DNA of 64,000 bases. Source: Geobacter sp. DSM 9736 (GTDB lineage: Bacteria > Desulfobacterota > Desulfuromonadia > Geobacterales > Geobacteraceae). The notes under the pieces are model-generated. The model was given only the letters and a program-made list of their open reading frames with translations. It was not told where the DNA came from and made no database searches. Of this stretch, positions 6,395-26,894 are shown piece by piece. Position 1 is the stretch's first letter, and each line of letters opens with the position of its first letter. The position numbers were made by a program, and so were the translations under genes. The DNA is taken from contig NZ_LT896716.1 in the NCBI RefSeq assembly GCF_900187405.1, positions 3,534,753 through 3,598,752 on the forward strand. Direction: 5' to 3'.

Positions 6395-7233
6395 AGATCA
6401 CCCGGAAGCCGGAATGGCTTCAGAAGAAAATATCCCCTGCGGCCCACGCAGAGATGGACCGGCTCCTCGGCGACCTGAAGCTCAACACTGTGTGCCGCGA
6501 GGCGATGTGCCCCAACATCTCCGAGTGCTTCCGCTGCGGGCAGGCCACCTTTCTCATTCTCGGCGCCCGCTGCACCCGTGCCTGCACCTTCTGCAACGTG
6601 ACGAAGGAGCAGCCGCTCCCCGCCGACCCAGGGGAACCGGCTAGGGTTGCAGAGGCGGTTACACGGCTGGGGCTTCGGCACGTTGTGGTGACGAGTCCCA
6701 CGAGGGACGACCTTCCTGACGGGGGGTCCGCTCTCTACGCCGCCACGGTGGTAGCGATTCGCGCAGTCTCCCCCGCGACGAAGGTCGAGCTCCTTATCCC
6801 AGACTTCGACGGGAGCCGGGAGAGCATCGAGATCATCGTCGCCAGCACTCCCGACATTGTAGGGCACAATGTCGAGACAGTCCCCCGCCTTTACGAGATC
6901 AGGAAGGGTGCCGATTACCGGCGCTCCCTGGAGGTGCTTGCGATGCTTCGGGGGCAGGCCCCGGGGCTGAAGACAAAGTCCGGCATCATGCTGGGGCTGG
7001 GGGAAACGGAGGAGGAGGTTCTTCGGGTGCTCGACGACCTGCGCAACGTGGGATGCACATGGTTGAGCCTGGGACAGTACCTTGCCCCCACCCGTGACCA
7101 CTTTCCCGTCCAGGAATACATTTCTCCGGAGCGATTCGAGAAGTACCGTCAGGAGGCTCTTGTGCGGGGGTTCAGCCATGTGGAGAGCGGGCCGTACGTG
7201 CGCAGTTCCTACCATGCCGATCATTACCGATAA
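6391..7233 (+). CDS. lipA: Lipoyl synthase (radical SAM)
   Basis: Radical SAM enzyme that inserts two sulfurs into protein-bound octanoyl groups. Both iron-sulfur clusters are visible: the auxiliary cluster motif CREAMCPNISECF (CX4CX5C) and the SAM cluster motif CTRACTFC (CX3CX2C). The C-terminal RSSYHA serine motif is present. Length is 280 residues, somewhat shorter than E. coli LipA. The start is GTG, overlapping the upstream stop. It completes a lipoylation pair next to the GcvH gene. Confidence 0.96.
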   Translation: MKITRKPEWLQKKISPAAHAEMDRLLGDLKLNTVCREAMCPNISECFRCGQATFLILGARCTRACTFCNVTKEQPLPADPGEPARVAEAVTRLGLRHVVVTSPTRDDLPDGGSALYAATVVAIRAVSPATKVELLIPDFDGSRESIEIIVASTPDIVGHNVETVPRLYEIRKGADYRRSLEVLAMLRGQAPGLKTKSGIMLGLGETEEEVLRVLDDLRNVGCTWLSLGQYLAPTRDHFPVQEYISPERFEKYRQEALVRGFSHVESGPYVRSSYHADHYR

Positions 7234-8303: not shown

Positions 8304-9572
8304 TTAGCTGCCGCTTCCGTCCGAGTTGGGACGAGCGCTGCTTACGCTACCGCCGTCGGGAGAGGTGTCCTTCACCCACAGGAAGAGAAAGAGTGCAATG
8401 GCCAACCCGCATACCGGCAGTAAAAATGCGGTGTGGTAGGCCTCGGGGGGGTAACCGGCGGAGGTGGGGGAATATCCCTCGATCATGCGACCCATCGCCT
8501 GCTGCACAGTCGCCGCTCCCATCAGGACGAAGAAGTTCATCGCCGTCATTGCGGTGGCACTGATTCCCTGGGGGAACATTTCGCGGACCATCGGATAGAT
8601 GGCCACGCCTGACGAGACGGCAAGTCCGATGACGAGAAACACGGCGGGGAGTGCCGGGCGTGCTATCGATTCCGCAGGCCCGAGAAAAAGTGCCATCAGC
8701 AGCAGGAGAAGGGCTTGGCCGATGAGAAGGGTCCATTTGCGGGACTTCAGAAGCCGGTCGGATATTTTTCCGACAAAGGTGCAGCCGAGAATAAACCCGA
8801 CGGAGGTGAAAAGGAGGATGCTTCCGGCTCCTTTACGGGAGAAGCCAAGGGCGTCCATGAGATAAGGCCCCCCCCACAATCCCTGCAATGCCATGTAGTT
8901 TGCGTACCAGAAGAAGGAGAGCAGGGAGAGAAGCCAGAAGGAGGGGGTCGTGAAGACGGTGTGCCAGCCCCGTAACAATCCCGCATGTTCAGTGGATGCG
9001 GAGCCATGAGGCTGGGCGGGGTCACGGTCACGTACGATCATGTAGGCAAGAAGCACCACGAGCGCCTGGATTATACCCGCTGCAACAAATGGCTCCCTCC
9101 AGCCGAACCGTGCGATCGCCGCCGCAAGGGGAGCAGTTGCGGCGAGGTTTCCCAGATTGCCGATGGCTATGATGAGGCCGGAGATTGTGGCGAATTCTCG
9201 GGGCGAGTACCAGTTCCCGAAGATCTTGAGGGCGCCCATGAGAACGCATGCGCTTCCCATTCCCAGAAGAATCCGCCCGGCCAATGCAGCGTAGAAGGAG
9301 GGGGCCGCCGCAAGCAGAAATGCCCCCGCGGCGGTCAACAGGCCCGTCAGGCTGATGACTATCCTTCCCCCGAACCGGTCGAGGAGGGGCCCGAGGGGAA
9401 TCTGCACGAGCGCGAATGCGTAAAAGAAGGCTCCCGAGAGGGTGCCTAGCTGCACGGCGTCGAGCCTCAGTTCGGTGCTCAGATCCTTCGAAGCCACCGC
9501 CATGGAGACCCGAAAGAAATATGCGAGCACGTACATGCAGGAGAGGACGATAAAGATGTTGCGGCGTTTCAC
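8304..9572 (-). CDS. MFS family transporter
   Basis: Major facilitator superfamily permease of 422 residues with about 12 hydrophobic segments. The loop between segments 2 and 3 carries the family signature (GPLLDRFGGRIV), and its first half resembles sugar-phosphate or anion:cation symporters (VLAYFFRVSMAV). The start is GTG with a GAGGG site just before. The substrate cannot be told. A repeat element ends only 12 bases before the start codon, so its promoter may lie in that element. It closes with a proline- and serine-rich hydrophilic tail. Confidence 0.85.
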   Translation of the reverse strand: MKRRNIFIVLSCMYVLAYFFRVSMAVASKDLSTELRLDAVQLGTLSGAFFYAFALVQIPLGPLLDRFGGRIVISLTGLLTAAGAFLLAAAPSFYAALAGRILLGMGSACVLMGALKIFGNWYSPREFATISGLIIAIGNLGNLAATAPLAAAIARFGWREPFVAAGIIQALVVLLAYMIVRDRDPAQPHGSASTEHAGLLRGWHTVFTTPSFWLLSLLSFFWYANYMALQGLWGGPYLMDALGFSRKGAGSILLFTSVGFILGCTFVGKISDRLLKSRKWTLLIGQALLLLLMALFLGPAESIARPALPAVFLVIGLAVSSGVAIYPMVREMFPQGISATAMTAMNFFVLMGAATVQQAMGRMIEGYSPTSAGYPPEAYHTAFLLPVCGLAIALFLFLWVKDTSPDGGSVSSARPNSDGSGS

Positions 9573-9584
9573 GGTACCCTCTAA

Positions 9585-9723
9585 GAGGTTGCAGAAAAAC
9601 CCGGATTATTCAAAATTAGTCAGATTGTCGCACCCGCAGAAAGCGCCGCGGAGGCCAGCTGCGGTACCCGCCGCGCAATGAGGTTTCTAGGACGCGGCGA
9701 AACGACTCTTTTTCGGCAACCTC
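9585..9723 (-). mobile_element. MITE-like element, copy 1 (139 bp, terminal inverted repeats)
   Basis: The ends are 15-bp inverted repeats with one mismatch (GAGGTTGCAGAAAAA and TTTTTCGGCAACCTC). The interior, read on the minus strand, aligns with the element at 26441-26580: shared blocks include GTCCT(C/A)GAAA, GCAGCT and GGGTGCGAC(G/A)ATCTG in the same order. It fills the gap between pgeF and the MFS gene and has no coding capacity. Confidence 0.72.
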
Positions 9724-9731
9724 CCAAGGCT

Positions 9732-10532
9732 TCAGCGGAGCATGATGAAACCCATTTGTCTCCCCGTGTCCCCCTTATCCCTGCGATAGGAGAAAAAGAG
9801 GTCGGGGGTGCAGGAGACACACATGCCTGAAGTTTCGATGTTGCTCTCCCTCACCCCTGAACGCAGCAGAAGCTGACGGTTCGCTTCCTCCAGATCGAGA
9901 CTCCACTTTTTATCCCCTGCAGCGTTCGTTATCATCTCCCAGGAAAGGCCGCTCTTCCCGAACGCTTCACGCACCGGTTCGTCCACCTCGTAGCAGCAGG
10001 AACCGATGCCGGGGCCGACGGCAGCCAGAATGTCGGCGGGACGCGAACCGAAGATTTCCGCCATGGCGCCCACTCCTTTGCCGGCTATCCCGTGGGCCGT
10101 TCCCTTCCATCCTGCATGGAGGGCGGCGGCGACACCTTTCTTCGGGTCCAGGAGAAGGAGAGGAAAACAGTCGGCGACGCAGATCCCGATCATCACCCCA
10201 GGCTGGTTCGTGACTATCCCGTCGCATTCCAGCTTCTGAAAATGGGCGAAATCGGGATTGGGAGAGTCGATCACGAGGAGATCGGTGCCATGCACCTGGC
10301 TGACGGTGACGAGTCGATCCAGGGTTGCGCCGAAGCTTCGGGCCAGCAGGCTTCGGTTTCCCTTGACGTTGTGGGGCGAATCATTGGTGTTGGTGCCGAG
10401 GTTGAGTGAGTTGTAGGGGGGGCGTGATACCCCTTCGTGCCTGGTGGTGAAACCTTGCGTCGAAATTCCGGCTGCCGCAAAGAGGGCAGGTTCAAGGTAA
10501 TGTATTTTGCTGGTGGTCTTTCTGATTTCCAT
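9732..10532 (-). CDS. pgeF: Peptidoglycan editing factor PgeF / multicopper-oxidase-fold purine nucleoside enzyme
   Basis: YfiH/PgeF (laccase domain, COG1496) family, 266 residues. These enzymes act on purine nucleosides and, in E. coli, prevent wrong amino acids in peptidoglycan precursors. The zinc-ligand motifs are visible: SQVHGTD, ADCFPLLL and ALHAGWKGT, plus GPGIGSCCYEV. The start at 10532 is set by a ribosome site AAGGAG seven bases before; the longer open frame would run into rluD. It lies 13 bases after the rluD stop and is likely co-transcribed with it, an arrangement seen in many bacteria. Confidence 0.93.
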   Translation of the reverse strand: MEIRKTTSKIHYLEPALFAAAGISTQGFTTRHEGVSRPPYNSLNLGTNTNDSPHNVKGNRSLLARSFGATLDRLVTVSQVHGTDLLVIDSPNPDFAHFQKLECDGIVTNQPGVMIGICVADCFPLLLLDPKKGVAAALHAGWKGTAHGIAGKGVGAMAEIFGSRPADILAAVGPGIGSCCYEVDEPVREAFGKSGLSWEMITNAAGDKKWSLDLEEANRQLLLRSGVRESNIETSGMCVSCTPDLFFSYRRDKGDTGRQMGFIMLR

Positions 10533-10545
10533 GAAAAGCTCCTTG

Positions 10546-11532
10546 TCAGGAAAGAGGTGATTCTGTGCCGGCTGCAGCCTGAGCCTGTTCCTGCAGGTAG
10601 CGGAGTACCCGGGCCATATCCTCCGGCATATCGGTCGTAAATTCCCGGTAAGAGGCATCTGAAGGGTGGATGAAGCCCAGGGTGGCTGCATGGAGCGCCT
10701 GTCTTCCCAGCTGCTTTACCATTTTTCGCAGGAGTGGGTCCTGAATGTTTCCGAGCCTGCTTGTCCCGCCGTATACCTCGTCTCCTACCAGCGGATATCC
10801 CGCTTCCGACAGATGCACCCTGATCTGGTGGGTCCGCCCCGTTTCCAGGCGCAGGCTCATCAGAGTGATCCCCCTGTAGCGGGCAAGAACGCGCCAGTGC
10901 GTAACAGCATTCCTGCCGTGCCGCGCCTTGCCGGACATCTTTTTACGTTCGACCGGGTGCCGGCCGATGGCCGATTCTATTCGTCCCTTGTCCTGGCGGG
11001 GTGAGCCGAAAACGAGGGCGAGGTAAACGCGCTTCACCGTGTGTTCCCGAAATTGCTCGGCGAGGGACCGGTGAGCCGCATCATTCTTGGCGACGACCAA
11101 TATACCCGACGTATCCTTGTCTATCCGGTGGACGATGCCGGGTCGCAACTCTCCTCCGATGCCCGAGAGATCGTCGCAGTGGCCGAGGAGGGCATTGACG
11201 AGGGTGCCGGTGTTGCGTCCCGCGCCGGGATGAACCGTCATCCCTGCAGGCTTGTTGATGACAACAACGTCGGAGTCCTCATGTAGGATCTCCAGCGGGA
11301 TTTCTTCGGCAACCGCCTCCGCCGGTGCGGGGGGAGGAATCGTCACATCGATGAGTTCACCCCCCTTCAACTTGAGGGATGGCTTCTGAACCATGCCGTT
11401 CACGGTCACGAACCCCGTTTCGATCAGCCGTGTGGCTGCAGAGCGGGTAAGGTTTTCCACCATACGTGCAACGAACTGGTCGAGCCGCTCGGTTTCTTCC
11501 CCCGCTTCGTATTTCAGCTGCAGTTTCTCCAC
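10546..11532 (-). CDS. rluD: Ribosomal large subunit pseudouridine synthase D
   Basis: RluA/RluD family pseudouridine synthase, 328 residues, modifying 23S rRNA. An S4 RNA-binding domain fills the first ~70 residues (RLDQFVARMV) and the catalytic aspartate lies in HRIDKDTSG. The start is GTG with GGAAAG upstream. The product is about the same length as E. coli RluD. It precedes pgeF in the same direction. Confidence 0.93.
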   Translation of the reverse strand: MEKLQLKYEAGEETERLDQFVARMVENLTRSAATRLIETGFVTVNGMVQKPSLKLKGGELIDVTIPPPAPAEAVAEEIPLEILHEDSDVVVINKPAGMTVHPGAGRNTGTLVNALLGHCDDLSGIGGELRPGIVHRIDKDTSGILVVAKNDAAHRSLAEQFREHTVKRVYLALVFGSPRQDKGRIESAIGRHPVERKKMSGKARHGRNAVTHWRVLARYRGITLMSLRLETGRTHQIRVHLSEAGYPLVGDEVYGGTSRLGNIQDPLLRKMVKQLGRQALHAATLGFIHPSDASYREFTTDMPEDMARVLRYLQEQAQAAAGTESPLS

Positions 11533-24808: not shown

Positions 24809-24935
24809 GACACACGTCCCAAAGCCATCCGGTGTGGGGCCTGTTGCCCGTTCGCAGCAGATAGTACACGGAAGGCAAGGATACGTCAACGCCGCCTCTG
24901 CAGCCATGCTCTGTTGAAAAAGCATCAGAAGGGTA

Positions 24936-25190: not shown

Positions 25191-26438
25191 ATGAATCTAC
25201 AAGAATTAAAAGGTAAAAAGATTAATGACTTAGCTGCTATTGCGAAGGGGCTAAACATCGAAGGGGCTTCGAGCCTGCGGAAGCAGGACCTTATCTTCGC
25301 CATTCTCAACGCCCAGACCGAAAAGAACGGTATGATATTCGGCGAGGGGGTCCTCGAAACTCTTCCGGACGGCTTCGGGTTTCTCCGGGCGCCGGACTAC
25401 AACTATCTGCCCGGTCCCGACGATATCTACGTTTCTCCGAGCCAGATACGCAGGTTCAATCTCCACACGGGAGATACAGTTTCAGGGCAGATCCGGCCAC
25501 CCAAGGAAGGAGAGCGTTATTTCGCCCTCCTAAAAGTCGAATCTGTAAACCACGAGCCCCCAGAGGTGGCACGCGACAAGATACTCTTCGACAACCTGAC
25601 TCCTCTCTATCCCGAGGAGAAGCTAAAGCTCGAAACCACCCATGACAACATGTCGACCCGTGTGATGGAGCTGATCGCTCCCATCGGCAAGGGACAGCGC
25701 GGACTCATCGTAGCTCCTCCCCGCACCGGGAAAACGATGCTCATTCAGAACATCGCAAATTCCATCGCCGAAAACCACCCCGAAGTGTTCCTCATCGTGC
25801 TTCTGATCGATGAGCGGCCTGAAGAGGTTACCGACATGCAGCGTTCGGTCCGGGGGGAGGTTGTCTCCTCCACCTTCGACGAGCCGGCCGCACGCCATAT
25901 CCAGGTTGCCGAGATGGTGATTGAAAAGGCGAAGCGTCTGGTGGAGCACAAGCGGGACGTAGTCATCCTGCTGGACTCGATCACCCGCCTAGCCCGCGCT
26001 TACAACACCGTAATTCCTCCTTCCGGCAAGATTCTCTCCGGCGGTGTCGACTCCAACGCTCTCCATAAGCCGAAGCGGTTCTTCGGCGCAGCGCGGAACA
26101 TCGAAGAAGGGGGCTCGCTCACCATCATCGCCACCGCGCTTATAGATACAGGAAGCAAAATGGACGAGGTGATCTTCGAGGAGTTCAAGGGGACCGGCAA
26201 CATGGAGCTCCACCTGGATCGCAAGCTTGTCGAGAAGCGGACATTCCCGGCCATTGACATCAACAAGTCTGGCACAAGGAAGGAGGAGCTGCTCATCGAC
26301 AAGGCCGCCCTCAACCGGATATGGATACTCCGGAAGGTGCTCCATCCGATGAATGTCGTCGACAGCATGGAATTTCTTCTCTCCAAGCTGGAGGGGACAA
26401 AGACGAATCAGGAATTCCTCGATTCCATGAGCAAATAG
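25191..26438 (+). CDS. rho: Transcription termination factor Rho
   Basis: Hexameric RNA-dependent ATPase that ends transcription. 415 residues, the usual length. The N-terminal RNA-binding domain spans about residues 1-125 ([17 protein letters not shown]), the Walker A loop APPRTGKT lies near residue 175, Walker B is in [11 protein letters not shown], and the Q/R loops follow. A GGAGAAT site precedes the ATG. It has its own promoter and long leader, and heads a run with rpmE and prfA. Confidence 0.98.
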
Positions 26439-26440
26439 CT

Positions 26441-26580
26441 TTAACAGGTTGTTGAAAAACCGTGACTTTGCCACCGTCCTCGAAAGCTGCCGTGTGCGGT
26501 ATGTGCAGCTACGCTTCCATGGGCTGTGGGTGCGACGATCTGGTCGTTCCTGAGCAACCCAGGTTTCAACAGCCTGTTAA
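26441..26580 (+). mobile_element. MITE-like element, copy 2 (140 bp, terminal inverted repeats)
   Basis: Ends are inverted repeats of about 19 bases (TTAACAGGTTGTTGAAAAACC and GGTTTCAACAGCCTGTTAA). The interior matches copy 1 at 9585-9723 in opposite orientation. It starts two bases after the rho stop codon and may also act as a hairpin at the end of the rho transcript. No coding capacity. Confidence 0.75.
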
Positions 26581-26696: not shown

Positions 26697-26894
26697 ATGA
26701 AAGAAGGAATCCATCCGAAGTACACTGAAGTCACGGTGAAATGCCTTTGCGGCAACACCTTCCAGACAAAATCCACAAGGCCGGAGATCAGCACCGAGAT
26801 TTGCTCGGCCTGCCATCCGTTTTTTACCGGGAAGCAAAAGCTGGTCGATACGGCCGGCCGCGTGGAGCGGTTCAAGAAACGTTACGGCATGTAA
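26697..26894 (+). CDS. rpmE: 50S ribosomal protein L31 (zinc-binding type)
   Basis: 65-residue L31. The zinc cysteines are complete: KCLCG and CSACHPF (C16, C18, C37, C40), so it is the zinc-binding form whose level depends on zinc supply in other bacteria. Start at 26697 is preceded by GAGGAGGAAG. Ends at a clear terminator. Confidence 0.97.

Follow-up and report, generated by a model that had tools for sequence, protein, structure and literature searches.

Probable MITE-like hairpin elements with YTAR flanks in Geobacter sp. DSM 9736 and related genomes

Two copies of a repeat in the window

The window, a 64,000-nt stretch of the Geobacter sp. DSM 9736 chromosome, contains two small, non-coding repeats in opposite orientation (132 and 139 bp, lengths that could not hold a transposase gene). 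One lies between rho and a ribosomal protein-like reading frame, and the other between a laccase-domain gene and a transporter gene:

8304–9572, minus strand: MFS transporter gene (Pfam MFS_1, 1.2e-41)
9581–9584, no strand: target repeat CTAA (TTAG on the element strand), from the sequence
9585–9723, minus strand: element copy 2, 139 bp, core 9603–9722 (covariance-model match on the minus strand, 78.7 bits)
9724–9727, no strand: target repeat CCAA (TTGG on the element strand), from the sequence
9732–10691, minus strand: Cu-oxidase_4 (laccase-domain) gene (Pfam, 6.5e-83)
25191–26438, plus strand: rho, transcription termination factor (Pfam Rho_RNA_bind, 2.1e-34; Rho_N, 5.8e-19)
26441–26444, no strand: left target repeat TTAA, from the sequence
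26445–26576, plus strand: element copy 1, 132 bp, CAGGTTGTTGAAAAA...CAACAGCCTG, core 26446–26560 (covariance-model match, 81.0 bits)
26577–26580, no strand: right target repeat TTAA, from the sequence
26697–26894, plus strand: 65-aa ORF after element copy 1, presumably rpmE-like (from its translation)

Copy 1 starts after a gap of 6 nt from the rho stop. Copy 2 has its 5′ end 8 nt from the stop of the Cu-oxidase_4 gene and its 3′ end 12 nt from the first start codon of the MFS gene, that start being the mechanical start of the ORF. The repeats that flank copy 2, CTAA and CCAA, differ at one position. When one copy is reverse-complemented, the pair aligns with 83 identities over 129 columns and a score of 65, whereas 2000 dinucleotide shuffles reach at most 35 and the same-strand comparison gives 24. 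A first-pass annotation had described two diverged, oppositely oriented copies of about 140 bp and had let the claim hinge on the comparison with shuffled sequence; its sizes, coordinates and similarity are correct. Its boundaries are almost exact, 9585–9723 being the element without target repeat and 26441–26580 the element with both TTAA repeats. The proposed solo end at 24909 does not hold up, as the 13-mer sits at 24911 and has neither CAGG/YTAR context nor an adjoining core.

Size, anatomy and distribution of the family

As DNA queries, the window copies match at least 41 and at least 42 places in the genome, themselves included, with the best 40 of 95 and of 88 candidates scored and identities to the other places of 69–85% and 74–92%, respectively; the copy at 9585–9723 has matches at no fewer than 41 other places. 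Neither DNA search listed the other window copy. Both are recovered by a covariance model built from 40 copies, whose alignment includes the two and whose RNAalifold structure was kept. In the 3.96-Mb genome, this model gives 143 matches with E up to 0.01 (best 150 of 1678 candidates scored), or 115 places after removal of 28 opposite-strand duplicates, so the further copies that the first pass proposed to look for are present. The weakest matches are fragments of the central hairpin. Counts of anatomy and placement rest on 93 of the 115 places, taken with their flanks.

Type I, defined by a loose match to both ends, accounts for 72 of the 93 copies, and 21 lack these ends. The family ends read CAGGTTGTTGAAAAAC...GTTTTTCAACAACCTG, with YTAR as a 4-bp repeat on either side. 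The type I core AGGTTGTTGAAAAACAGCC...GGCTGTTTTTGAACAACCT is in most cases some 121 bp long, or some 139 bp where the loop holds a module; longer modules are rarer. To the right of the core, the second arm GTTTTTCAACAACCTG mirrors the left end. Terminal inverted repeats are thus present in the family, with the outer right arm lost, worn or unrecognisable in many copies. The type I consensus folds into one long hairpin (−70.8 kcal/mol, z −8.0), and 92% of cells pair in 40 type I copies. Since the RNAalifold consensus missed this hairpin, pairs were counted on the named structure instead. Both window copies fold more weakly than the consensus (z −4.25 and −1.94), as expected of worn copies; they are worn and may be immobile. 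A second repeat, around CAGATTCGCGATGATTCCGTCGTCG or a variant of it, stands near several copies (L018, L025, L028, L032 and L060).

The first-pass annotation had also suggested, from position, a role for the window copies as terminators or promoters of their neighbours, and consensus scans lend this no support at either copy. The terminator scan finds a single site, at 26462–26474 on the minus strand, where 0.5 are expected, and none at 9585–9723; the promoter scan of both copies finds none. The wider idea that the family consists of bidirectional intrinsic terminators, alike by convergence, draws on the position behind stop codons and on T-runs in the arms. These T-runs, however, are paired inside the stem of the consensus fold, the scans give chance numbers at the window copies, and convergence is contradicted by the identity of the loop sequences and by the insertion data below, which together leave this explanation hardly credible. 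Integron attC sites and group II or retron RNAs were dropped by eye, because the copies lie among ordinary genes in both orientations.

Among 78 genomes, 31 (our own included) contain matches with E up to 1e-5, and 12 contain 10 or more. Copy number ranges from 0 to at least 46 and also varies widely inside genera; species of genus g18 differ from 0 to 38 matches. G020, which we take to be G. uraniireducens Rf4, gave 0 family-model matches under stricter filters. A search of the genome collection for a 24-nt core pattern, matched exactly, yields 54 stretches; each bears the title Geobacter, Oryzomonas, Geobacteraceae, Desulfuromonadales or Deltaproteobacteria. The phage and plasmid collections returned no family match. 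In G069 and G048 pooled, the nearest neighbour of 56 of 83 copies lies within the same genome (shuffled mean 31, maximum 46); the same is true of 0 of 7 copies in three genomes with 2–3 copies. Uneven copy number together with same-genome neighbours is counted here as a sign of probable lineage bursts.

Empty sites, target duplications and the putative engine

The junction between rho and rpmE was compared in our genome and in 29 relatives, out of 78 genomes with a rho match. The element is absent in all 29 relatives read, where the junction measures 98–165 nt; the junction of our own genome, at 258 nt, is longer because of the element. Judged from these sequences, the copy at 26445 is an insertion directly behind rho.

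A closer comparison is offered by G069, a metagenome-assembled 'Geobacter sp.' (JACRPV), and G048 of the same genus, whose flanks are mostly 82–98% identical. A subset of the G069 copies, 37 sites, was compared; 34 have both flanks in G048 (L154, L261 and L273 do not), and one, L275, is a type II element in G069 with no such element in G048. At 18 of the 33 comparable sites, G048 has no element. Nine sites have one in the same orientation, four in the opposite orientation, and two carry another element with the same centre; at L112/L235 and L272/L281, type I in G069 stands against a different hairpin in G048 whose centre is of the same kind. Some of the 18 empty sites retain end fragments (L127 and L258, perhaps also L244 and L257), and several junctions are frayed, such as kdpDE, L158 and L159. 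The kdpDE site, where the element is absent in G048, was for this reason set aside as a duplication case.

Three sites resolve the duplicated target. L246 has TTAG on both sides in G069 and a single TTAG at the empty G048 site, with the bases to the right of TTAG differing between filled and empty site. L252 likewise has TTAG on both sides, and the empty site reads CTAG; L131 is flanked by CTAG and CCAG and faces one CTAG at the empty site. Across the family, TA occupies the expected left place in 31% of our own copies (n = 51) and 43% of the others (n = 30), against 0–10% at other positions. On the right, where copies whose outer arm matches loosely were counted, the figures for the expected place are 23% (n = 31) and 40% (n = 25), against 0–19% elsewhere. 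Where the outer arm was matched more strictly, 11 of 29 copies carry a 4-bp repeat that differs at no more than one position; shifted controls give 0–3, except that a one-base shift gives 8, nearly equal to the count itself. The remaining 18 of these 29 copies lack a recognisable 4-bp repeat, which counts against a mobile-element origin. A TA-only duplication by an IS630 transposase was considered and dropped, as the 4-bp YTAR is seen at empty sites and 30 DDE_3 loci are without the ends.

The empty sites at rho–rpmE and in G048, together with these duplications, indicate that the element is MITE-like and was mobile. We consider a MITE-like family very probable: its copies are dispersed, its ends CAGGTTGTTGAAAAAC inverted and its hairpin core conserved, and several sites show a YTAR duplication. 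The non-autonomous family proposed in the first pass therefore stands as regards its further copies, its target-site duplications (L246, L252, L131 and the TTAA/TTAA pair at 26441/26577) and its empty orthologous sites (29 of 29 relatives; 18 of 33 sites in G048); a transposase with matching ends did not turn up among the listed end-like sites of the own genome, in 30 DDE_3/IS630 loci or in 1.01 Mb of fetched loci. Our genome has no IS-sized inverted pair among the end-like sites listed (about 100 of 158, complete to 2 mismatches). The 30 DDE_3/IS630 loci have no end with fewer than 3 mismatches, and a RUP-like mobilisation by IS630 finds no footing there. The 1.01 Mb of fetched, partly overlapping loci hold 24 loose end pairs (at most 3 mismatches, 0.7–3.2 kb apart), and in the 18 stretches that cover them the best-scoring ORFs resemble host genes by eye.

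The element may be moved in trans, or may once have been, by a DDE transposase with an IS5-like target and a YTAR duplication. IS5 is reported to duplicate YTAR (PMC10359306), which makes an IS5-type enzyme our first suspect for the engine. The IS5 group shares this duplication with the family (PMC10359306) and differs in that no IS5-type element with CAGGTTGTTGAAAAAC ends was found among the end-like sites of our genome or in the fetched loci; IS711 also targets YTAR but duplicates TA (PMC2266754).

REP/REPIN elements moved by a RAYT (Y1) transposase would resemble the family in being palindromic and extragenic, and by eye the nif region described below has four units in tandem as well as opposite pairs. 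Over 78 genomes, however, copy number shows no correlation with the count of Y1 genes (rho −0.04), and G069 and G075, both 81% complete, carry 41 and 16 copies with no Y1 match. Y1 enzymes are not known to leave a 4-bp duplication, which likewise counts against this origin, and we regard it as very improbable.

Hairpin core, placement and relation to known elements

Shared sites in G069 and G048 differ in their interiors. Of the 9 same-orientation sites, 8 have the loop module (about 18 nt, TTTATGCCC...) in one genome and lack it in the other (L145/L293, L156/L240, L251/L277, L264/L280, L266/L295, L269/L297, L270/L298 and L271/L296), and orientation is opposite at 4 of 13 shared sites (L115/L292, L140/L239, L155/L238 and L253/L294), where the left boundary is shifted. 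These differences could reflect interior exchange, repeated insertion, beside which the shifted left boundaries of the flipped sites are to be noted, or an assembly error at this palindromic repeat in the G069 draft. The ranks of nearest neighbours at shared sites carry little weight, because the distances are small. We put forward as a tentative and rather doubtful idea that the sites are fixed slots, whose interior is swapped or inverted between dispersed copies by ectopic gene conversion through the matching arms. If true, the hairpin core would be a selected RNA or single-stranded DNA module that is transposon-borne.

The pairing within the core bears on a further alternative, a conserved regulatory RNA family whose core is selected as RNA in 3′ UTRs or between cistrons, with dispersal secondary. 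Two-sided changes affect 13 of 50 type I pairs, compared with 4.5 in shuffled (sd 1.4) and 2–7 in slid alignments. Nine copies of type II were extracted and eight aligned, the ninth, from nif, being left out. In the eight, the sequence of the outer stem differs yet pairs, and the internal loops are fixed. Their outer and inner stems covary with a score of 0.287 (0.120 shuffled, at most 0.082 slid), and two-sided changes occur at 9 pairs against 5.4 shuffled, a number reached by 4 of 500 shuffles; pair types are no more numerous than after shuffling (12 against 12.4). At L073 (G000:C1:1391010–1399628), diverged hairpins with the same core but other ends lie in the gaps between nifH and nifD and between nifD and nifK, and after nifK, genes that we take to be such from their translations. 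The locus also has a four-unit tandem array upstream of nifH and, by eye, opposite pairs around the nif genes. In the same locus, positions 6451–6574 on the minus strand, upstream of nifH, match Rfam P11 (a Pseudomonas sRNA) at an unconvincing 32.5 bits, the gathering threshold being 70.

Compensatory changes, along with internal loops that stay fixed, suggest something beyond a selfish MITE, and the two-sided changes, the type II covariation and the nif cores all speak for a regulatory RNA. Matching arms in palindromes can also arise by template switching, which counts against it, as do the presence in only 31 of 78 genomes with large differences inside genera, the 18 of 33 compared sites, over half, that are empty in the related genome, and the lack of any Rfam family in the window or the 9 loci tried. 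In its favour is also that the same centre occurs in short RNAs predicted in 2009, in the part of that source available to us (PMC2700814). On balance, a primarily regulatory family appears rather unlikely.

Placement was read from a simple codon-usage gene caller, which is crude and missed both the Cu-oxidase_4 gene and the rpmE-like ORF. On these calls, 2 of 72 type I copies fall within a gene, and 36 of 70 with a called upstream gene start −3 to +10 nt from its same-strand stop (32 of 63 among copies with genes on both sides). The stops at these 36 copies are 20 TAG, 8 TAA and 8 TGA, and 15 of the 36 are YTAR stops, compared with 9 of 64 among the genes called in the window. On the right, the mirror position has an opposing stop in 7 of 63 copies, and on the left side 10 of 63 copies lie 5–16 nt upstream of a start. 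Divergent junctions hold 2 of 63 type I copies against 6 of 63 window junctions, and we claim no avoidance. Symmetric ends do not account for this bias in placement towards the left end, which counts against a mobile-element origin.

For the MITE-like family that we favour, insertion into YTAR would leave the upstream gene intact, TAR often being its stop codon, and copies would for that reason persist after genes and immediately before start codons. Transcripts that run through such copies may carry them as a very stable hairpin, with a possible effect on mRNA processing like that reported for ERIC and Correia elements.

In the parts of the sources available to us, ERIC, Correia, RUP and YPAL resemble the family in size (about 100–200 bp), intergenic position, mostly inverted ends with TA, uneven copy number and hairpin transcripts (PMC2229807, PMC10969869). 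Compared by these descriptions, the family is set apart by its YTAR duplication and its clade. Chunjie, a MITE of 178–235 bp in Geobacter uraniireducens, is alike in belonging to the genus Geobacter, as far as the excerpts of its source describe it (PMC10969869), and differs through the absence of family-model matches from G020. No paper in the literature searched combined GTTGTTGAAAAA with 'transposase', and on Geobacter MITE or REP elements it yielded only Chunjie and general papers, with no MITE reading of the family in the text available.

The nearest precedent is a set of 24 predicted short RNA elements in Geobacter metallireducens with the centre GRCGTAGCGCTGCTACGCC (Aklujkar et al. 2009; PMC2700814, Additional file 4), the only source in the literature searched to contain GTAGCGCTGCTACG. 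In the portions of that paper available to us, the centre is recorded also in G. sulfurreducens, G. uraniireducens and Desulfotalea, and one G. metallireducens element lies in the dapAB-dapL operon (PMC2700814). This central palindrome equals the apex of our family, from which the window copies deviate, and both sets are multicopy and intergenic; the 2009 elements differ in being called RNA and in their 24 copies, and terminal repeats, duplications and empty sites go unmentioned in those portions (PMC2700814). The family is ordinary in kind and new in detail. Its duplications and empty sites give a probable mobile-element origin to repeats whose centre had been noted in 2009 in predicted RNAs of unassigned role, and the G069/G048 pair makes insertion, loss and perhaps interior exchange traceable.
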